NCBI RefSeq assembly: GCF_037031225.1
Contig: NZ_JAYEZN010000001.1
Span: 2,418,001-2,482,000, forward strand
Length of the DNA: 64,000 nt
Source of the DNA: Halorientalis sp. LT38
GTDB lineage: Archaea > Halobacteriota > Halobacteria > Halobacteriales > Haloarculaceae
Reading direction: 5' to 3'
Part shown: positions 1,705 to 34,688 of the stretch, one piece after another
Numbering within the stretch: the first letter of the stretch is position 1
Layout of the letters: the number at the start of each line of letters is the position of its first letter
The notes under the pieces: model-generated
What the model was told of the DNA's origin: nothing
The model's database searches: none
Seen by the model: only the letters and a program-made list of their open reading frames with translations
Program-made: the position numbers and the translations under genes

Positions 1705-2427
1705 ATGCCCGATTCTCCCGCCGCTGACGCCGACGACGCCGTGCTGCCGGAATTCGTCGACCCGCCCGCCGACCCGTCGGGTGACGGTGCCGACGTCCCC
1801 GCCGAACCGGCCGAACCGGCCGCACCGACGGACGGCGTCGGCCCCGAGGGCCCCCAGTCCGACCCCGACGTGCCCGCCGACGTCCAGAAGTACGACCGGT
1901 TCAAGAAGATCGAGGGCGGGACCTACGACCGGGCCAACGAGTTCCTCCGCGACCGGACCTACGTCACCGCCCGCGAGTGGGCCATCGCCCGCCTCTGCGC
2001 CGACTTCCGGACCGAAACCGGCGTCGAGATGACCAAGATCGGCGAGAACCTGCCCGAACTGGTCCCCTTCATGACCGACACCTACACGCCCCAGGCGGTC
2101 AACCAGGCCCGCCACTCCTTCGAGGAGAAGGTCCGGAAAGCCGGCGCGACCTTCCTCTACGGCGCGATGTGTGACTTCTTCACCGCCGAGGAACTGGACG
2201 ACGTGATGTACGAGGCCACCGAGGTCGCGAAGTTCCTGCTGGAGGTCGAGGGCGTCGAACTCTCCGTCGAGGAGGAACTGGAGGCCGAAGACCGCATCTC
2301 CGAGGTCATGCGCGACGTGCGCGAGCACTCCGCCGCGCTGCGCCACGACGAGTGCCCCCACTGCGGCGGCGACCTCGACGGCGGCGAGCACGACGGGAGT
2401 AACACGACGGCGGAAGCCGACGACTAG
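1705..2427 (+). CDS. Conserved haloarchaeal protein, DUF5806-like
   Basis: A 240-residue protein. The first 55 residues are Pro/Ala/Asp-rich and probably disordered. The core (VQKYDRFKKIEGGTYDRA onward) is helical and matches my memory of the haloarchaeal DUF5806 family, whose function is unknown. The C-terminus has a CPHC pair near residue 218 that could be half of a metal site, but no partner pair is visible. The start at 1705 was chosen because the frame upstream reads as Arg-rich shadow sequence. The stop is followed at once by a T-tract and a strong GC hairpin, which fits a transcript end. Confidence 0.7.
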   Translation: MPDSPAADADDAVLPEFVDPPADPSGDGADVPAEPAEPAAPTDGVGPEGPQSDPDVPADVQKYDRFKKIEGGTYDRANEFLRDRTYVTAREWAIARLCADFRTETGVEMTKIGENLPELVPFMTDTYTPQAVNQARHSFEEKVRKAGATFLYGAMCDFFTAEELDDVMYEATEVAKFLLEVEGVELSVEEELEAEDRISEVMRDVREHSAALRHDECPHCGGDLDGGEHDGSNTTAEADD

Positions 2428-2444
2428 ACCCCCACTTTTTACGT

Positions 2445-2471
2445 CGGGGGGTGCGCGGAGCGCACCCCCCG
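2445..2471 (+). terminator. Terminator-like hairpin after the DUF5806-like gene
   Basis: A perfect 11-bp stem (cggggggtgcg / cgcaccccccg) with a five-base loop, preceded by ccccactttttacgt and followed by gaagcaaaaac. The same T-tract, G6 stem, C6 stem, gaag, A-run arrangement occurs after valS, suggesting a shared 3'-end module. A terminator role is inferred. Confidence 0.6.
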
Positions 2472-2667
2472 AAGCAAAAACTTGGGGAAAAACTGCTCCG
2501 AGCGAGCGCATGCGCTCGCTCGGAGGGTTCCCGTGAGTGACCGCAGGGAACGAACGGGAGTCCTCGAAAATCGGAGATTTTCGGGATGCCACGAGAGCGG
2601 CGGTCTCGTGAGCACTCGGAAGTCGCAGTCCGCGCAGCACCGCAGGTGCGAGCAGAACCGTCTTCCG

Positions 2668-2700
2668 GTGAACCGCGCGCCTCCGGCGCGCGGATGCTGG
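2668..2700 (+). repeat. 33-bp dispersed palindromic unit, copy 1
   Basis: Begins gtgaaccgcgcgc and ends gcgcggatgctgg around a short loop. It matches the reverse complement of 17943-17975 with one mismatch, and is related to units at 23498-23527 and 24354-24385. It ends five bases before the stop codon of the convergent AAC(3)-like gene. Confidence 0.8.
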
Positions 2701-3604: not shown

Positions 3605-5095
3605 CTACTCGTCGGAGGGATCCGGGTCTGCCGGATCGGCACCCGATTCGCCAGCGGTGTCCGTCTCGCTCCCCGGCTCGGCGTCTTCCCCCGTGGCCGT
3701 CGCCGGCGACGATCGGTCGATGGTGCGGACGTTGACGCCCACCGGATCGCCGAAGCGCTCGTTCTCTGCTCGCGGGCTTCGCCCGCTCGCTTGTTCCGAG
3801 GCGCTTCGCGCCTCGCCCTCCCCTGACTCTGCGGCCTCGATGGCAGAGTCCGGGCCGAATCGCTCGTAGACGACCTCGCCGCGGACCAGCGTGAGTTCGG
3901 GGAACACCCCCCGTTTCCCCTCGAACGGGGTCCACCCGCACTTCGAGTGGAGGTCCTCGCCGCGGATCTCCCGGCTCGCTTCGGGGTCGACGAGGACGAG
4001 GTCAGCGTCCATCCCCTCGGCGATCTCGCCCTTCGTCGGCAGGTCGAACAGGTCGGCGACGTTTTTGGCCGTGAGGTCGCGGACGCGCTCGTAGGAGATG
4101 TCGCCCTCGCGGGCCCGTTCGAGCAGGAGCGGCAGGGCGGTCTCGACGCCGGGCACGCCCGACGGGGCGTCCCAGATGCTCGCGTCTTTCTCCTCGCGGG
4201 TGTGGGGCGCGTGGTCGGTGGCGACGATGTCGACGGTGCCGTCGACGACCCGTTCCCAGACCTTGCTGCGGAGACGCTCCCGGCGCAGCGGCGGGTTCAT
4301 CCGGCCCAGGGTCTCCAGGTCGCGGCTGTCCTTCCGCGAGAGGAACATGTGGTGGGGCGTCACCTCCGTCGTCATGCCGTGCTCGGCGGCGGCGTCGATG
4401 CCCTCGGGCGTCGAGGCGTGCGCGACGTGCAGGTCGGCGTCGAACCGGTCGCCAACTTCTGCGGCGGCGCGGACGGCGGCGGCCTCCGCGCGGGCGGTGC
4501 GGTAGGCGCTCCAGGCGTCGGCGTCCTCGCGCTCCTGGGCACCGGGCTCGAACTCCGTGGCGTCCTCGGCGTGGACGGTGACGACGGTGTCCTGCCGGGT
4601 CGCGGTCTTGACCGCGCTTGCAAACAGTTCCACGTCGATCCCCATCTCGCCGGTCGAGTCGGCGAGGAAGACCTCGCCGAGGGCGAACATGGGCCGCTGG
4701 AAGAGCGCGCTGGGGACCCAGTGTTCGGTGACGCCGCCGTTGATGCCGAAGTCGACGAGCGAGCCCTCGCTCGCTCTGTCCTGTTTCTCGTCGAAGGAAG
4801 CGCCGTCGATCGTCGGCGGGTCGGTGTTGGGCTGGTCGACGGCGCAGGTGACGCCGCCGGCCGCGGCCGAGCGGCTGCCGGTCTCCCAGGTCTCCTTGTG
4901 GGAAAAGCCCGGCTCGCGGAAGTGAACGTGCGCGTCGATCATCCCGGGCATGAGACGCTTGCCGCTGGCGTCGACGAACCGCTCGTCGGCGTCCTCGGGC
5001 ATCGGGAGGTCCTCGCCGACGGCCGCTATCTCTTCGCCCTCGACCAGGACGTCGCGCTGTCGACCGTCCGGGAGGGTCGCGTTCCGGATGAGCAT
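3605..5095 (-). CDS. pyrC: Dihydroorotase
   Basis: A 496-residue class I (allantoinase-type) dihydroorotase that closes carbamoyl-aspartate to dihydroorotate in pyrimidine synthesis. Visible signatures are the metal site DAHVHFREPG (residues 54-63), the DQPNTDPP loop, HAED and HAST histidines, and the catalytic TDHAPHT motif. The ATG at 5095 (MLIRNATL) is preferred over the GTG two codons upstream. The body appears to finish near residue 408 with LVRGEVVYERFG. It is followed by a Ser/Glu-rich stretch (about 411-448) encoded by three consecutive DNA hairpins, then a second ERFG and a disordered acidic tail. That insertion looks foreign to the family. Confidence 0.93.
   Translation of the reverse strand: MLIRNATLPDGRQRDVLVEGEEIAAVGEDLPMPEDADERFVDASGKRLMPGMIDAHVHFREPGFSHKETWETGSRSAAAGGVTCAVDQPNTDPPTIDGASFDEKQDRASEGSLVDFGINGGVTEHWVPSALFQRPMFALGEVFLADSTGEMGIDVELFASAVKTATRQDTVVTVHAEDATEFEPGAQEREDADAWSAYRTARAEAAAVRAAAEVGDRFDADLHVAHASTPEGIDAAAEHGMTTEVTPHHMFLSRKDSRDLETLGRMNPPLRRERLRSKVWERVVDGTVDIVATDHAPHTREEKDASIWDAPSGVPGVETALPLLLERAREGDISYERVRDLTAKNVADLFDLPTKGEIAEGMDADLVLVDPEASREIRGEDLHSKCGWTPFEGKRGVFPELTLVRGEVVYERFGPDSAIEAAESGEGEARSASEQASGRSPRAENERFGDPVGVNVRTIDRSSPATATGEDAEPGSETDTAGESGADPADPDPSDE
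3750..3867. repeat. In-frame hairpin block flanked by 13-bp direct repeats inside pyrC
   Basis: The direct repeats ccgaagcgctcgt (3750-3762) and ccgaatcgctcgt (3855-3867) differ at one base. Between them lie three stem-loops: gcgggc/gcccgc (3772-3786), gaggcgc/gcgcctc (3798-3814) and gactctgc/gcagagtc (3825-3850). Two of them have ttc loops, like the intergenic hairpins elsewhere in the window. The block keeps the reading frame. Confidence 0.75.
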
Positions 5096-12745: not shown

Positions 12746-12768
12746 CGGGGGTCGTCTACTTCTCGGTG

Positions 12769-13177
12769 GCAGAGGGAGTCCGGCTCCCGTGCCCCGGCCC
12801 GCACACGCGCGAGGGGCATGAGGAAAGTCCCCCCACCGTCCGGGCAGGTGACCGGGCGCAAGCCCGGAGCGGGAGACCGCTGGCTCTGGAACAGAAACGA
12901 GACCCCTCCGCGGCAGCGATGAGGCGTGCGAACCCGGACCGCAAGGGACGGGGAGTTAACCCGCCGAGCGTTGGGAGGTCTCTGACCTCCATAGGCGAGC
13001 GGCGTAGCCGCTCGCCCTAACGTGGCGACTCCGTCGCCACGCCATCGCGGAGAACGGATGGAACGGCGAACCCTCACCGGTGCAAGCCCGCGCCGTCAAG
13101 GTAGCCCGGAGACGGGACCTGGTGCGGGTGCGTAGCCGAATGCCGGACCGAACAGAAGGGGGCTTACTCCCCTCAGC
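12769..13177 (+). ncRNA. rnpB: RNase P RNA, archaeal type A
   Basis: The conserved blocks are in order: gaggaaagtcc (CR-I and P4 5' strand), acagaaa, gagttaacccgcc, agaacggatgg, cggtgcaagcccg, ggtagcc, and the 3' block gccgaatgccggaccgaacagaagggggctta with the P4 3' strand. P1 forms from gagggagt (12772-12779) with actcccctc (13166-13174). Three strong stem-loops at about 12975-13060 fit the variable P10-P12 region. The ends are approximate to within about 5 bases. The length of about 410 nt is typical. Reading frames across this segment are shadows. Confidence 0.93.
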
Positions 13178-13248
13178 CGATCGATATCCCGAGCCACGGC
13201 GCTCCCCGGCCGCAATTGACAAGACGCTTCACCGTGAGGATCCGGTAG

Positions 13249-14882: not shown

Positions 14883-15129
14883 GATTCGATACCTGGGGGT
14901 CGCAAGAAGCTCTCGGACGAGCAAGGGGTTCTGGCGTTTCGCCTGCTCGCGGTTCGCTCCGCTCACCGCTCGTTAGTCCCGGGATGCTCCCTTCGGTCGC
15001 ATCCCGCTGCTCACGGGTCACTCCGTTCCCCGCTCGTTGTTCGGAGGACTCGCTGCGCTCGTCCTCCCTGCTCACGGCTCCCGACGGTCGCCGTTCGCTT
15101 TTCCGGGGCTCTCACTCCGTTCGAGCCCC
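14883..15129. repeat. Hairpin-rich intergenic segment
   Basis: No gene is seen here. The segment is a run of stem-loops such as gggatgctcccttcggtcgcatccc, gaggactcgctgcgctcgtcctc and ggggctctcactccgttcgagcccc, all with short cgctgcg- or cttcggt-like loops. They resemble the other palindromic blocks in this window but lack the 33-base unit. Confidence 0.6.
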
Positions 15130-17942: not shown

Positions 17943-17975
17943 CCAGCATCCGCGCACCGGAGGCGCGCGGTTCAC
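17943..17975 (-). repeat. 33-bp dispersed palindromic unit, copy 2
   Basis: The reverse complement of 2668-2700 with one mismatch. In the transcription direction of valS it occupies the same place relative to the terminator-like hairpin as copy 1 does to the DUF5806-like gene. Confidence 0.8.
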
Positions 17976-18033
17976 TTCACGCGAGGCTCGTAGAGCCGAG
18001 CGTGAAGGAAGTTTTTGTACTAAATTTTTGCGA

Positions 18034-18062
18034 GGGGGGTGGCGGCGGTGCCGCCACCCCCC
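18034..18062 (-). terminator. Terminator-like hairpin after valS
   Basis: A perfect 13-bp stem (ggggggtggcggc / gccgccacccccc) with a three-base loop, flanked on the valS side by taaatttttacttcg and on the far side by an A-rich run. It shares its architecture with 2445-2471. Confidence 0.6.
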
Positions 18063-18074
18063 CGAAGTAAAAAT

Positions 18075-20714
18075 TTAGGGGTAGACGAGGATCGTCGCCA
18101 GGTCGCTCTCGATGACCTCGACCTCCTCACCGGATTCCGCCCGGTGCTCCTCGCGGATCTCGACGGCGTCGCCCGGAACCACGGCGACCTCTCCGCCCAG
18201 ATCCACCTCGATCTCACCGTCGAGCTGTTTCTGTTGCTTCACGTCCTCGGGGTCGGCGTCCTCCAGCGCTGCGACGACCTGGCCGGCCTGATCGCGGAAC
18301 TCCGGCCCGATGGTCGCGTGGTCGGGGTCGACCTCGACCGGGACGAGTTCGACCGCGGGCACACCCTCGCGGACGTGGACGGGGGCGTTGACCGCCTCGC
18401 TCAGGTCGTAGGTGTCGACGGCGCGCTCGGGCGTCTCCTCGGGGTAGACCTCGATCTTCCCGAGTTCGGCGTTCAGCGCCATGCCGGCGTCGGACTTCCA
18501 GCTTCTCACTGTGGCGGCCACGTCGGCGATGAGTTCGCCGGCGATCTCGGCGTCCTCGTCGCGCATGTCGACGTCGGGCCAGTCGGCGGCGTGGACGCTC
18601 CCCTCGGTGTGGGGGAGTCCCTGGTAGGCCTCCTCGGTCAGGAAAGGGGCGAAGGGCGAGACCATCCGGAGCGAGGCCGAGAGCGCCGTCGCGAGCGCCT
18701 GCTTCGCGGCGTTGGCCTCACCGGGGCGGCCCTCGTAGAGCCGGCCCTTGATGAGTTCGAGGTAGTCGTCGGCGAGGTCGTGCCAGACGAACTCGCGGAG
18801 CTCGCGCAACGCGGCGTCGAACCGGTACGCGTCCATGTGCTCGGCCACCGATTCGGCGACCTCGGAGGTCCGCGAGAGGATCCACTTGTCGGCGTCGCGG
18901 TAGGCCGGGTCCGGTCGGTCGAGGTCGTCCTCGCTCAGGTGGCCTTCGGCGAACTTCGTGATGTTCCAGATCTTCGTGCCGAACTTGGAGGCGGACTTGA
19001 CCTCCTTCCACTGGAACTGGATGTCGGAGCCGGGCTGGCCGCCGAGGGCCATCGCCTGGCGGAAGGCGTCGGCGGAGTACTCCTCGACGGCCTCCTCGGG
19101 CTGGACGAAGTTGCCCCGGGATTTGGACATCTTGTTGCCGTCCTCGCCGAACACCATGCCGTTGATGAGCGCCTCGTCCCACGGCTTCTCGTCGGCGATG
19201 GCGTCGGTCCTGAGGAGCGTGTAGAACGCCCACGTGCGGATGATGTCGTGGCCCTGCTCGCGGAGCGAAGTCGGCTCGAACTCCTCCTCGGGCCACCCTC
19301 TGACGTAGAGCGGCGTGATCGAGGAGTCCATCCAGGTGTCCATCACGTCGGTCTCGCCGGTCCACTCGGTGCCCCCACACTCCGGGCACTCCGAGATGTC
19401 GGGCCCCTCCTCGGTCGGATTCGCCGGCAGTTCGTCTGCCGTGGCGACGTGGATGTGGTCGCAGTCCTCGCCCTCGCAGAACCAGGCGGGGATCGGCGTG
19501 GCGAACACGCGCTGGCGGGAGATGACCCAGTCCCACTCCATCCCCTCGGTCCAGTCCTCCAGGCGGTCGTACATGTGCTCGGGGATCCAGTCGACTTCCC
19601 GGGCGGTCTCGAGGATGGCGTCCTGGTCGACCTCGACGAACCACTGCTCCTTCGAGAGGATCTCGATGGGCGTGTCACACCGCCAGCACTGCCCGACCGC
19701 CTGCTCGGTCGGTTCGGTGTCGGTGAGGTAGCCCTCGTCGTCGAGGTCGTCGGCGATGGCTTCCTTGGCCTCGTCGATGCCGAGTCCGGAATACTCGTCG
19801 GCCTCGTCGTTCAGGTGGCCGTCCTCGGTGAAGACCATCCGCAGGTCGAGGTCGTGTTCGGCCCACCAGGTGACGTCCTGTTTGTCCCCGAAGGTACAGA
19901 TCATCACCGCGCCGGTCCCGAAGTCGGGATCGGACTCCTCGTCGGCGATGAGTTCGACCTCGTGACCAAAGAGTGGGACCTCGAAGCGGTCGCCGAGGCG
20001 GTCCGCGTAGCGCTCGTCGTCGGGGTGGACCGCCATCGAGACGCAGGCCGCCAGCAACTCGGGGCGGGTCGTCGCGATCTCGATGTCCTCGGTGTCCTCG
20101 TCGGCGCCCTCGAAGGTGACGTAGTAGAGGGTCCCGTCGACGCCCTCCTCGGTCTCGACCTCGGCGTCTGCGATGGCGGTCTCACAGCGGGGACACCAGT
20201 TGACGGGGTGCTCGTCGCGGTAGACGAGGTCGTCGTCGGCCATCTCGACGAAGGAGCGCTGGGTCGTGCCCCAGTACTCGGGGTCCATGGTCCGGTACTC
20301 GTGGTTCCAGTCCTGGGAGAACCCGAGCGTCCCCATCGTCTCCTTCATCGCGTCGATCTGGTCCTCGGTGTGCTCGATGCACATCTGCCGGAACTCGTCG
20401 CGGGGGACCTCCGTCCGGTGGATCCCCTCGTTCTCCTCGACCTTCACTTCCGTCGGGAGGCCGTGGCAGTCCCAGCCCTGCGGGAAGAGCACGTCGTCGC
20501 CCACGAGCCGGTGATAGCGGGCGGCGAAGTCCATGTAACACCAGCCCAGCGCGTTGCCGATGTGGAGGTTGCCCGTCGGGTACGGCGGCGGGGTGTCGAC
20601 GACGTAGTCCGTATCTGCGTCGCCGGCGTACTCGTACACGTCCATCTCCTGCCACTGCTCGCGCCACTTCGGCTCGACCTGGTCGGGTTCGTAGTTGTCC
20701 GGTAGCTCACTCAT
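18075..20714 (-). CDS. valS: Valine-tRNA ligase
   Basis: An 879-residue class Ia synthetase that charges tRNA-Val. Signatures: [16 protein letters not shown] (HIGH motif at 51-54), the zinc-type cysteines [15 protein letters not shown] and [10 protein letters not shown], the CP1 editing domain with [22 protein letters not shown], the catalytic [15 protein letters not shown] segment, and NKMSKSRGN near residue 527. A long anticodon-binding region and acidic C-terminal tail follow. The TTRPE plus DTWMDSS pattern is typical of archaeal ValRS rather than IleRS. ATG at 20714 is used. A strong hairpin follows the stop. Confidence 0.95.
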
Positions 20715-21507: not shown

Positions 21508-22419
21508 ATGGAACTCGGCGTCATCGGACTCGGGCGGATGGGCCGCATCGTGGTCGACCGCACGCTTGCGGCCGGCCACGACGTGACGGCCTTCGACATC
21601 GACGAGGAAGCCGTCGCGGACGCGGCCGAGGCGGGCGCGACCCCCGCCGACTCGATCCCCGACCTCGCACAGCGACTCGGCGAGGAGAAACGGATCTGGC
21701 TGATGGTCCCGGCCGGCGACCCGATCGATGCCGCACTGGAGGAACTCGCGCCCCACGTCGACGGCGACGACGTCATCGTCGACGGCGGGAACTCGAACTT
21801 CCACGATTCGGTCCGCCGGGCCGAGTCCACCGAGGCGGCCTTCCTCGACTGTGGGACGTCGGGCGGCCCCGCGGGCGCGGAACTGGGTTTCTCCCTGATG
21901 ATCGGCGGCCCCGAGTGGGCCTACGAGGAACTGGTGCCCGTCTTCGACGCCGTGGCGACCGGACCCGAGGGCCACGACCGCATGGGGCCCGCCGGCTCGG
22001 GCCATTACGTGAAGATGGTCCACAACGGCGTCGAGTACGCGCTGATGCAGGCTTACGGCGAGGGGTTCGAACTGCTGGCGGACGGCCGATACGACCTGGA
22101 CCTCGAAGCCGTCGCGCGCACCTGGAACAACGGCGCAGTGATCCGCTCGTGGCTGCTGGAACTCTGCGAGGAGGCCTTCCGCGAGGAGGGCAGCGACCTC
22201 GGGACGGTCGCGGACCACGTCGCCGGCGGCTCGACGGGCACCTGGACCGTACAGGAGGCGCTCGAACAGGAGGTGCCGGTGCCGCTGATCTATCAGGCCC
22301 TCTCCGAGCGGTTCGGATCGCGCGCGACCGACGAAGCGCCGGGGCGGTTCTCCCGACGGCTCGCCAATCGACTGCGGTACGGGTTCGGCCGGCACGAGGT
22401 CGCGCGGCGGGAGGAGTAG
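21508..22419 (+). CDS. gnd: 6-phosphogluconate dehydrogenase, decarboxylating (short form)
   Basis: A 303-residue short-form 6PGDH converting 6-phosphogluconate to ribulose 5-phosphate and CO2 with NAD(P). It shows the Rossmann motif GVIGLGRMG (4-12), DGGNSNFHDS, the substrate loop DCGTSGGPAGAE, the catalytic lysine in GHYVKMVHNGVEYALMQAYGEG, and WNNGAVIRSWLLEL. Archaeal members of this form serve in the oxidative pentose phosphate pathway. ATG at 21508 directly precedes the first strand. The last 29 bases of the gene, including its stop codon, are repeated 212 bases downstream. Confidence 0.9.
   Translation: MELGVIGLGRMGRIVVDRTLAAGHDVTAFDIDEEAVADAAEAGATPADSIPDLAQRLGEEKRIWLMVPAGDPIDAALEELAPHVDGDDVIVDGGNSNFHDSVRRAESTEAAFLDCGTSGGPAGAELGFSLMIGGPEWAYEELVPVFDAVATGPEGHDRMGPAGSGHYVKMVHNGVEYALMQAYGEGFELLADGRYDLDLEAVARTWNNGAVIRSWLLELCEEAFREEGSDLGTVADHVAGGSTGTWTVQEALEQEVPVPLIYQALSERFGSRATDEAPGRFSRRLANRLRYGFGRHEVARREE
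22391..22419 (+). repeat. 29-bp direct repeat, left copy (gnd 3' end)
   Basis: This is the gnd 3' end, starting ggcacgaggtcgcgcggcg and ending gaggagtag. It recurs at 22603-22631 with one mismatch. Confidence 0.8.
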
Positions 22420-22695
22420 GTCATTGTACCGTGAGCGCGCTCGTCGCGCTCACGGGCCAAGCTCCGACCATCGGGAGGAGCGCAGGATTTTGGTCCAGCT
22501 TTTGCGAGTGAGCGGTGCGAGATACGAACGAAGTGAGTATCTCGATGGCGAACGGCGAAGCCGTGAGCCGCGCGAGCGAACGTGGCAAAAGGTGGTCCCG
22601 ACGGCACGAGGTCGCGCGGCGCGAGGAGTAGCTGTGGGTCAGCTTTGGGGCGGGAGTTCGTCAGTTAGATAAACCCGTATTCCGTACCGCCGGGC
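22420..22695. other. Palindrome-containing intergenic region after gnd
   Basis: No gene is seen. It contains gtgagcgcgctcgtcgcgctcac, gagatacgaacgaagtgagtatctc and ggcgaacggcgaagccgtgagcc stem-loops, then the second copy of the gnd 3' end (22603-22631), then a possible TATA element gttagataaacc (about 22663-22674) for the ferredoxin gene. Confidence 0.6.
22603..22631 (+). repeat. 29-bp direct repeat, right copy
   Basis: A duplicate of the last 29 bases of gnd including an in-register TAG; it differs only at one position (gcg versus ggg in the middle). The 183 bases between the copies hold hairpins. Confidence 0.8.
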
Positions 22696-23401: not shown

Positions 23402-23655
23402 TCCACCTTTTTCTTCGTCGGGTGACTCGCTTCGCTCGTCACCACTCCTCGAAAAACGTGGGCGAAAAAAGCCGAGTGCTCACTTCGTTCGCACTCGGTG
23501 AACCGGCGCGCAGAGCGCGCCGGATGCCTGTTTGAAATTCTTCACCGCAGGTACCGGCCCCCGTCCCTCAATTTTAGATGCCAGTTTGAGGTTACCGATC
23601 ACGATTTTATAATACTGTGCGCATCTTTATCATCGTCTGATACAAACGCTGAGTC
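23402..23655. other. Intergenic hairpins and promoter of the tRNA-linked insert
   Basis: Stem-loops ggtgactcgcttcgctcgtcacc and cgagtgctcacttcgttcgcactcg are followed by a palindromic unit (23498-23527). AT-rich boxes ttttataa (about 23605) and ctttatca (about 23625) precede the ORF; the second is correctly placed for a leaderless start at 23656. Confidence 0.55.
23498..23527 (+). repeat. Dispersed palindromic unit, copy 3 (diverged)
   Basis: gtgaaccggcgcgc - aga - gcgcgccggatgc. It has the same start, palindrome and ggatgc end as the 33-base unit, with one extra G-C pair per arm. Confidence 0.65.
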
Positions 23656-24162
23656 ATGTTTGGTGAAGGGAATCAAACGTATCAGCAAGTAGTGGAGCTG
23701 GTTGATGCGTGGCGGCCATCACAGAATTACGGTCACGAAAGCAAATTTCAGAAGGAGTTGTCCGAATTTCTGGACGAGGAACTGAACAGGCAAACGGGAG
23801 GGATTATGGGCGGGAATGGCGATAATCACGTAGTCAGCCGTGAACGTGGGAACTCCCGCGGTGATGTCGTCATTGATGACCTAGTCGGAATCGAGATGAA
23901 ACGGCATTTCTCGAACAGCCAGAAGAAGAAACTCCGGGGACAGTTGGAGGACTACGCCGACAATTACCCCTATGTGATCGCTCTCGCCTGTGGTATCGAC
24001 GACATGGATGGGTGGCGTGAACTAGAGAACAAATTCTCGGGAGGGCGCGGAATGGGAATTGACCAGACGCAGTTCTCGTTCATTATCAAGCGTCGAGAGA
24101 ATTTCGGCGATGACCACGACCTGGGTAGTGGCGGCGGTTTCGGCGGTATTCCGGGTATCTGA
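23656..24162 (+). CDS. Putative PD-(D/E)XK nuclease-fold protein
   Basis: A 168-residue protein of unknown family. Residues 61-100 fit a restriction-endonuclease-like core: SRGDVVIDD (Asp70) followed by GIEMK (Glu80, Lys82), i.e. D-x9-ExK, then a helix with Gln96 and Tyr100 (RGQLEDY). A Glu-containing helix (ESKFQKELSEFLDEEL) precedes it, as the fold expects. The Gly-rich C-terminus (GSGGGFGGIPGI) is probably flexible. It lies in a low-GC insert beside tRNA-Arg and precedes a tiny membrane ORF. A role in defence or element maintenance is a guess. No close homologue is recognised. Confidence 0.6.
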   Translation: MFGEGNQTYQQVVELVDAWRPSQNYGHESKFQKELSEFLDEELNRQTGGIMGGNGDNHVVSRERGNSRGDVVIDDLVGIEMKRHFSNSQKKKLRGQLEDYADNYPYVIALACGIDDMDGWRELENKFSGGRGMGIDQTQFSFIIKRRENFGDDHDLGSGGGFGGIPGI

Positions 24163-24211
24163 ATATGGACGCTACTGATGAAACCATCTGTTACCACGGG
24201 GGAGTACACTG

Positions 24212-24310
24212 ATGGCCGAGCAGGACCCGCTTCAGGGACTGCCTGACTGGCTGGTGTTACTGATGATCGTTCTGTTCCTGATCGGGGCTGCTATCGTTCT
24301 ATACCTGTAG
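24212..24310 (+). CDS. 32-residue single-pass membrane peptide
   Basis: The reading frame gives MAEQDPLQGLPDW followed by a continuous hydrophobic helix (LVLLMIVLFLIGAAIVLYL) to the C-terminus. Such a composition is unlikely by chance in a random frame, and the codons are of the same low-GC style as the nuclease-like gene 49 bases upstream. The gap between the two genes contains no hairpin, so they may be co-transcribed. A small membrane effector or holin-like peptide is possible; nothing in the sequence identifies a function. Confidence 0.5.
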   Translation: MAEQDPLQGLPDWLVLLMIVLFLIGAAIVLYL

Positions 24311-24330
24311 CCGATCACGCACTGCCAGGA

Positions 24331-24348
24331 CGAATCCCTCGCCGCCCG
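24331..24348 (+). repeat. 18-bp direct repeat, right (attR-like)
   Basis: An exact copy of the tRNA-Arg 3' end (23384-23401). The bases on either side differ, so the repeat is precisely 18 bases. No tRNA can be formed here. Confidence 0.85.
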
Positions 24349-24654
24349 CTTTTCACGAACCGGCGCGCCCTGTGCGCCGGACGCCATCGTAGGATTACCC
24401 ATGGGCAGACGTGCCGTCGTCCGTGAACGTACAGGACGAGCGTGCAGCACCCGGCGGGGAGTCCGCGAGGCGGCGACCCGGGTGGTGTGACACCGGTCGC
24501 GAATTTGAAAATCCTTGATGTGATCGCTGCCCACCAGGGCTCGTCTGCCGGCGGTAGGGCACGGAAAACCCGACTTGGGTGCTGTTACCGGCGAAACGAT
24601 CGACCGGACTTATCGTGTTACCAATGCTCATGGAAGGCGCCCGAGGTGGGAGCA
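24349..24654. other. Intergenic region between the insert and the cupin gene
   Basis: These 306 bases hold a diverged palindromic unit at 24354-24385 and then mixed sequence without a convincing ORF; the reading frame running into the cupin gene from 24442 lacks any leader or domain. An AT-rich cttatcgtgtta at about 24609 may be promoter-related. Confidence 0.45.
24354..24385 (+). repeat. Dispersed palindromic unit, copy 4 (diverged)
   Basis: cacgaaccggcgcgcc - ctg - tgcgccggacgcc. It follows attR-like sequence by five bases and is related to copy 3, which lies on the other side of the insert. Confidence 0.5.
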
Positions 24655-34646: not shown

Positions 34647-34688
34647 TCCGGCCGCTCGCTCACGCTCGCGGCCGGGTCAGTACCGGGG

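Follow-up and report, generated by a model that had tools for sequence, protein, structure and literature searches.

Why should a DUF5806 gene and valS, in one and the same haloarchaeal genome, be followed by the same succession of tracts and hairpins? The window in which this was seen, that is, the whole stretch of 64,000 nucleotides that was analysed, comes from Halorientalis sp. LT38 (G000:C1:2418001-2482000; the G000 genome comprises 3.58 Mb). The initial annotation had described one shared order at the two gene ends (stop codon, T-tract, G6/C6 hairpin, GAAG/A-run, hairpins, and a 33-mer), and this order reads base for base; the 33-mer does recur inverted 3′ of valS, with a 32/33 (97%) complementary match. 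The two look-alike sequences are members of a family of short, non-coding mobile elements of ~100-270 bp, which appears not to have been described before, no account of it having been found in the open-access literature.

Copies of the element in the window

The copies and the features to which they are anchored are as follows, with scores taken from the covariance model described below.

1900-2427, plus strand: 3′ part of the DUF5806 gene (Pfam PF19122, E 1.7e-64); its stop codon TAG at 2425-2427 anchors copy 1
2428-2700, plus strand: copy 1, a composite element with two model matches (43.4 + 34.4 bits)
2428-2440, plus strand: left arm of copy 1, ACCCCCACTTTTT, directly 3′ of the DUF5806 stop
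2444-2472, plus strand: hairpin 1 of copy 1, a 13-bp stem with G6/C6; GAAGCAAAAACTTGGGGAAAAA comes next, and further hairpins after it
2476-2487, plus strand: right arm of copy 1, AAAAACTTGGGG; the second A-run is at 2488-2492
2496-2525, plus strand: hairpin 2 of copy 1; optional modules occupy 2526-2665
2668-2700, plus strand: 33-mer of copy 1, GTGAACC-hairpin 3-GGATGCTGG
17943-18080, minus strand: copy 2, 3′ of valS (87.7 bits); its left arm CTAAATTTTT, also on the minus strand, includes the valS stop codon TAA
17975-18007, minus strand: hairpin 2 of copy 2; the 33-base unit is at 17943-17975
18034-18062, minus strand: hairpin 1 of copy 2, a 13-bp stem with G6/C6
22390-22419, plus strand: 3′ end of gnd (gene at 21508-22419), first copy of the target repeat, 29/30 identical to 22603-22632
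22420-22602, minus strand: copy 3, 3′ of gnd (27.3 bits); its right end abuts the gnd stop
22603-22632, plus strand: displaced second gnd 3′ end, the target-site duplication
23402-23530, plus strand: copy 4 (129.9 bits, the top model score in the window), which begins at the 3′ end of tRNA-Arg(CCG) and includes a hairpin-3 unit at 23497-23526
24332-24348, plus strand: attR-like duplicate of the tRNA-Arg 3′ end, GAATCCCTCGCCGCCCG, identical to the tRNA 3′ end
24357-24384, plus strand: diverged hairpin-3 unit GAACC-GGCGCGCCCTGTGCGCC-GGACGC, found by direct reading, with a weak model match nearby

On the minus strand the end of valS, whose product carries a class I tRNA synthetase domain (Pfam), reads CCCCTAAATTTTT, then the G6/C6 hairpin, the A-runs, hairpin 2, and the 33-mer. 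Read along gnd, copy 3 presents a hairpin, TTTT-GGTCCAGC-TTTT (22488-22503), hairpins, and AAAAGGTGG. This gnd copy had been overlooked, as had the covariation of the stems and the fact that the T-tract and the A-run are the arms of one stem.

Two further units had been proposed near tRNA-Arg, and both are there: the one at 23497-23526 lies in a full copy after the tRNA, and the diverged one at ~24357-24384 follows the duplicated tRNA 3′ end. Within 23402-24384, ~930 bp with a 168-aa ORF (23656-24162) separate tRNA-Arg from the duplicated 3′ end at 24332-24348, and this interval is in all probability an integrated element of small size; past its distal tRNA repeat comes the diverged hairpin-3 unit. 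Similar hairpins, with tandem TC/TC and short loops, can also be seen outside recognizable copies, at 3768-3815, 14980-15129, and 34648-34675. An Rfam scan of 2300-24700 returned tRNAs and the archaeal RNase P RNA at 12768-13178 (RF00373, 148.8 bits), and no curated model matched the element.

Frame, number, and distribution of the family

Matches to GAACC-N(6-34)-GGATGCTGG recur far beyond chance (16 in G000 vs 0 for the reversed control), and all but two, which resemble coding sequence, have the surroundings typical of the family. Reading upstream of these matches gives the common frame CCACC-TTTTT-cttcG-[hairpin 1]-ctcG-AAAAA-CGTGG-GCG-AAAAA-[hairpin 2]-(T)GAACC-[hairpin 3]-GGATGCTGG, to which extra hairpin modules may be added; in its short form this is CCACC-TTTTT, hairpin 1, AAAAA-nGTGG, the A-run, hairpin 2, and GAACC-hairpin 3-GGATGCTGG.

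A covariance model built from six copies (threshold E<1e-4) finds at least ~40 copies in G000 and 33-67 in each congener. The other Haloarculaceae genera have 2-44 copies, and outside the family there are mostly few or none, two genomes of other families having 25-26. These counts are lower bounds, since only the best candidates from the pattern and model searches were scored (the best 150 in G000 and the best 88 per genome in the survey). The four units first noticed are, therefore, not the only ones in the genome. In GTDB genomes, 84 stretches contain the exact linker TCGAAAAACGTGGGCGAAAAA; to go by the genus names, almost all are from Haloarculaceae, with Salinarchaeum in addition. In viral, plasmid, and phage records the linker was found in one viral contig, one plasmid, and no phage, and these were set aside as carriers.

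A word on search motifs is in order. G6-N4-C6 returned no matches because stems and loops vary, and a loose pattern with three mismatches gave mainly noise. The terminal TCAGTACA, considered as a target signal, proved to be no more than an extension of the right end, present in some copies, mainly those from Halorientalis salina. Two loci in G000, L060 (G000:C1:1637783) and L064 (G000:C1:2577034), each have the same optional module by itself (GGAAGTCGCAG...hairpin...CGTCTTCC), which in one case lies between sequences resembling tRNA 3′ ends, and low-complexity sequence like CCGCACCGCNACCGC lies 3′ of many right ends (e.g., L089, L109, L169, and L197).

Stems that keep their pairing but not their sequence

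In 67 aligned copies, 31/36 pairs are altered on both sides. Cells with double changes number 439 vs 139 in shuffles, and the covariation score is 0.454 vs 0.03-0.08 with the partners slid, in an alignment that was model-fitted and so favours structure. The sequence of the hairpins is thereby shown to turn over freely while their pairing persists. Fixed letters are limited to flanks such as GAACC and GGATGC, the stems varying with compensation, and wobble pairs are rare (1.2% on the plus strand and 1.6% on the minus strand).

The outer stem covaries as well, with the pairs of arms CCACCTTTTT/AAAAACGTGG, CTAAATTTTT/AAAAATTTAG (which holds the gene's stop codon), and GCACATTTTT/AAAAATGTGC; the T-tract and the A-run are, therefore, the two arms of one stem.

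Placement at gene ends and a likely terminator role

A random orientation relative to genes would have spoken against the initial reading, and placement is not random: in 60 copies, no more than 5 nt separate the left end from a stop codon, which puts a T-tract just behind the gene as in archaeal intrinsic terminators, and eight copies are found 3′ of tRNAs. In right-anchored copies, the right end lies against the stop of an opposite-strand gene. With both kinds of anchoring, the gene remains intact.

In Haloferax, a T-stretch serves as an intergenic terminator and a hairpin is able to terminate (PMC7237163). The element resembles these terminators in its T-tract directly behind the gene and in its hairpins; unlike it, they do not belong to a repeated family of mobile elements with several hairpins. 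The initial annotation also had the family end transcripts, and the anatomy agrees with this. One way, transcription would meet a T5 tract right at the stop and, the other way, a GC hairpin followed by T5-N8-T5, so that, to judge from these motifs, the element likely terminates transcription arriving from either side. Such a two-way role, if correctly predicted, would explain why the element is retained and why it is positioned to the base.

Mobility, target repeats, and exchange between copies

The initial annotation had suggested a mobile or recombining family, and mobility is well supported by the comparison of genomes: besides the ~40 copies, there are identical copies elsewhere, filled and empty sites, target duplications, and exchanged hairpins. 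In G020, three copies are identical across 156-167 bp in unrelated flanks; these are not flush with the preceding genes but lie ~45-55 bp past the stops.

Presence and absence among congeners can be read at the DUF5806 and gnd sites. The DUF5806 site of G003 has no element, and only 4 bp separate the gene from the convergent gene next to it. The gnd site is filled in G000 and G003 (where the repeat is ~39 bp) and empty in G001, G002, and G004-G007, where the native spacer directly follows a single gnd end, with the ferredoxin gene after it. At valS, G000, G003, and G002 (cut by the contig end) carry the element, and G001 and G004-G007 lack it. The gnd copies of G000 and G003 are not grouped together by a weak 1-kb tree, and one loss or a transfer must, therefore, be assumed; some absences may be losses across repeats.

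Copy 3 lies between two gnd 3′ ends, which form a 30-bp direct repeat (29/30) around 22420-22602. Direct repeats of 29-74 bp flank 8/42 copies in G000, with scores of 26-74 as against a 99th percentile of 12 in 1722 mismatched flank pairs; in seven of the eight they are flush with both edges of the element, and in the eighth the right edge had been set short. Among 80 named copies, chosen by the exact linker and enriched for one subtype, 39 score ≥16, with lengths up to ~104 bp. Repeats of the 3′ end of the target gene, 20-100 bp long, surround roughly a quarter of 183 copies, and tRNA 3′ ends of 21-22 bp are duplicated likewise. Insertion often doubles the final 20-100 bp of the gene that is entered, so that this gene remains whole.

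The repeat is absent in most left-anchored copies and in the three identical G020 copies, so that more than one mode may be mixed. Tandem arrays of the element plus a gene 3′ end, with two units visible, occur in L258, L290, L292, and L309; their repeats could have arisen by unequal exchange instead of insertion, and target repeats could in part be generated or homogenized through tandem amplification. At L188 (G006), the element sits between overlapping operon genes, and a 26-bp duplication appears to restore both the 3′ end of the first gene and the 5′ end of the second.

Copies also exchange parts. At one orthologous site of H. sebkhae and H. argentinensis, the left halves are 98% identical, and hairpins 2 and 3 are only 66% and 65% identical, values near those of random pairs (54% and 59%, respectively). 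Between H. amylolytica and H. japonica, the flanks are 97% identical, the loop of hairpin 2 is inverted, and hairpin 3 is unrelated. Right halves have been exchanged at orthologous sites, the outcome to be expected of recombination between copies.

Strand polarity

The 183 copies contain 443 hairpins, 386 of them with a 3-nt loop. Their 2x2 stem mismatches are nearly always TC/TC on the plus strand, which is tandem G·A on the minus strand (191 vs 6 of opposite polarity), and GNA triloops number 228 on the minus strand and 38 on the plus strand. If one sorts the copies by the anchoring gene, the G·A polarity is 57:3 in left-anchored and 48:0 in right-anchored copies; being equal in both, it is independent of the direction of the neighbouring mRNA. 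Of such hairpins, 65/68 near family linkers are of the G·A type vs 37/164 elsewhere in the same loci. Folding energy makes the minus strand the steadier one in 160/183 copies, but control flanks lean likewise (76/103), and for this reason we use the specific G·A count.

C(GNA)G loops as a class form DNA mini-hairpins of extraordinary stability. For loops such as d(GCGAAGC), this stability is documented (PMC10527192 and references therein). Taken together, the strand bias and these loops favour single-stranded DNA over RNA, and we infer a stage in which single-stranded DNA is recognized by its structure. One should keep in mind, as a point against the DNA reading, that GNA triloops and tandem G·A pairs form in RNA too.

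Comparison with known systems and alternative explanations

REP and BIME sequences are dispersed intergenic palindromes near gene 3′ ends, with asymmetric hairpins and one meaningful strand, and in this the element is like them. Unlike it, REPs have a conserved stem, a GTAG foot, and dependence on a RAYT (Y1); in place of a conserved palindrome with a fixed tetranucleotide foot, the element has stems that vary with compensation. MITEs and SMRs are likewise small, transposase-free, and present or absent among relatives, and the element shares their mobility (identical copies, presence/absence). MITEs, however, have terminal inverted repeats that match an IS, and short, fixed target duplications, whereas those of the element are ~20-100 bp, variable, and often lacking, and CCACCTTTTT at one end of it does not form an inverted repeat with GGATGCTGG at the other; SMRs have inverted repeats and no duplication. 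The label REP/MITE-like, given at first, is thus apt as an analogy and fails as membership: the palindrome sequence is not conserved, the ends are not mutual inverted repeats, G000 has no Y1, and the target repeats are much longer and more variable than those of a MITE. Integron attC sites also combine conserved short ends with a variable palindromic core of which one folded strand matters; the element has neither integron integrase nor cassettes, and the analogy is mechanistic only.

The PATEs of Haloquadratum are IS605-derived and make no target duplication (PMC3119063). Like the element, they are short, non-coding, palindromic (near the termini, as the model and alignment place the palindromes here), haloarchaeal, and without terminal inverted repeats, and their mobility too was inferred from filled and empty sites. 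Unlike the element, whose stem sequence is free, PATEs have near-terminal palindromes that are conserved and IS605-related, and they lack the 20-100 bp target repeats that flank 8/42 copies in G000 and about half of the 80 named copies; nor does the host of the element need a resident Y1 gene.

A PATE- or REP-type origin, in which an IS200/IS605 derivative is moved by a Y1 (HUH) transposase reading one folded strand, would suit the strand-polarized palindromes near the ends, the lack of coding capacity, the presence of PATEs in haloarchaea (PMC3119063), and the identical G020 copies without target repeat, in a genome with two Y1 genes. We nonetheless hold it to be unlikely, since no Y1_Tnp (IS200-type) match was found in G000 (99.97% complete, ~40 copies) or in G009, G012, G018, and G021, all with many copies, and since PATEs go without target duplications and the palindrome sequence is unconserved here. 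Y1 as a resident driver is, therefore, not supported.

Ordinary, non-mobile terminators or 3′-UTR RNA elements, whose likeness would be maintained by selection and gene conversion, are improbable too. Such sequences would be strictly placed at stop codons, with T-tracts and conserved pairing, and the same gene ends do bear copies in several species; against this stand the identical copies at unrelated loci, the empty sites, the duplications of target genes flush with the element's edges, the few wobble pairs, and a stable strand that is constant whichever way the gene runs. As a complete account, this explanation is mostly refuted already.

Quite improbable is retro-insertion, in which an RNA of the minus strand, folded and with its 3′ end fixed at the left end of the element, would be copied at a nick behind the gene by target-primed reverse transcription. 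It would explain the long, variable target repeats and a constant left end with a variable right end (after hairpin 2, hairpin 3, or later), which resembles 5′ truncation, but the loops are DNA-type triloops instead of the usual RNA tetraloops and left-anchored copies mostly have no repeats. Attachment-site remnants of integrase-driven elements entering tRNA and gene 3′ ends are very improbable despite the duplication of such ends, since dozens of unrelated genes have the same ~130-bp content directly bounded by repeats, the repeats are target-specific at >20 unrelated genes, and tyrosine recombinases require an att homology that one element cannot carry for all these genes.

A proposed mechanism

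We consider it likely that Haloarculaceae harbour short, non-coding mobile elements that settle exactly at gene 3′ ends, are recognized through a folded strand, and act as terminators. The minus strand of the element, with its tandem sheared G·A pairs and C(GNA)G triloops, would be recognized as a folded single strand during mobility or exchange; it would probably be DNA, acted upon by a host or element enzyme. The element would reach a gene 3′ end, often doubling the final 20-100 bp of that gene, and would there serve as a transcription terminator both ways, and copies would recombine, exchanging hairpins or right halves. No enzyme or autonomous partner was found for the family.

More tentatively, and as a possibility that we would not yet favour, the family may stand for a class of mobile DNA that is read by the shape of folded single-stranded DNA and not by its sequence, with GNA-capped hairpins, bearing tandem G·A pairs on one strand, as freely interchangeable modules, and with insertion at termination sites duplicating 20-100 bp of the gene end by a route, driven by a transposase or by repair, that would be new. 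The long, variable target duplications fit no well-known prokaryotic transposition mechanism.

Implications

If this reading is correct, each genome of a whole archaeal family has tens of transcription ends that can move and that spare genes as they land, and the regulation of gene ends can spread via transposition. Pairing that persists while its sequence is free, together with a polarity confined to one strand, would then offer a test case for how an enzyme or a cell reads the shape of a DNA hairpin.
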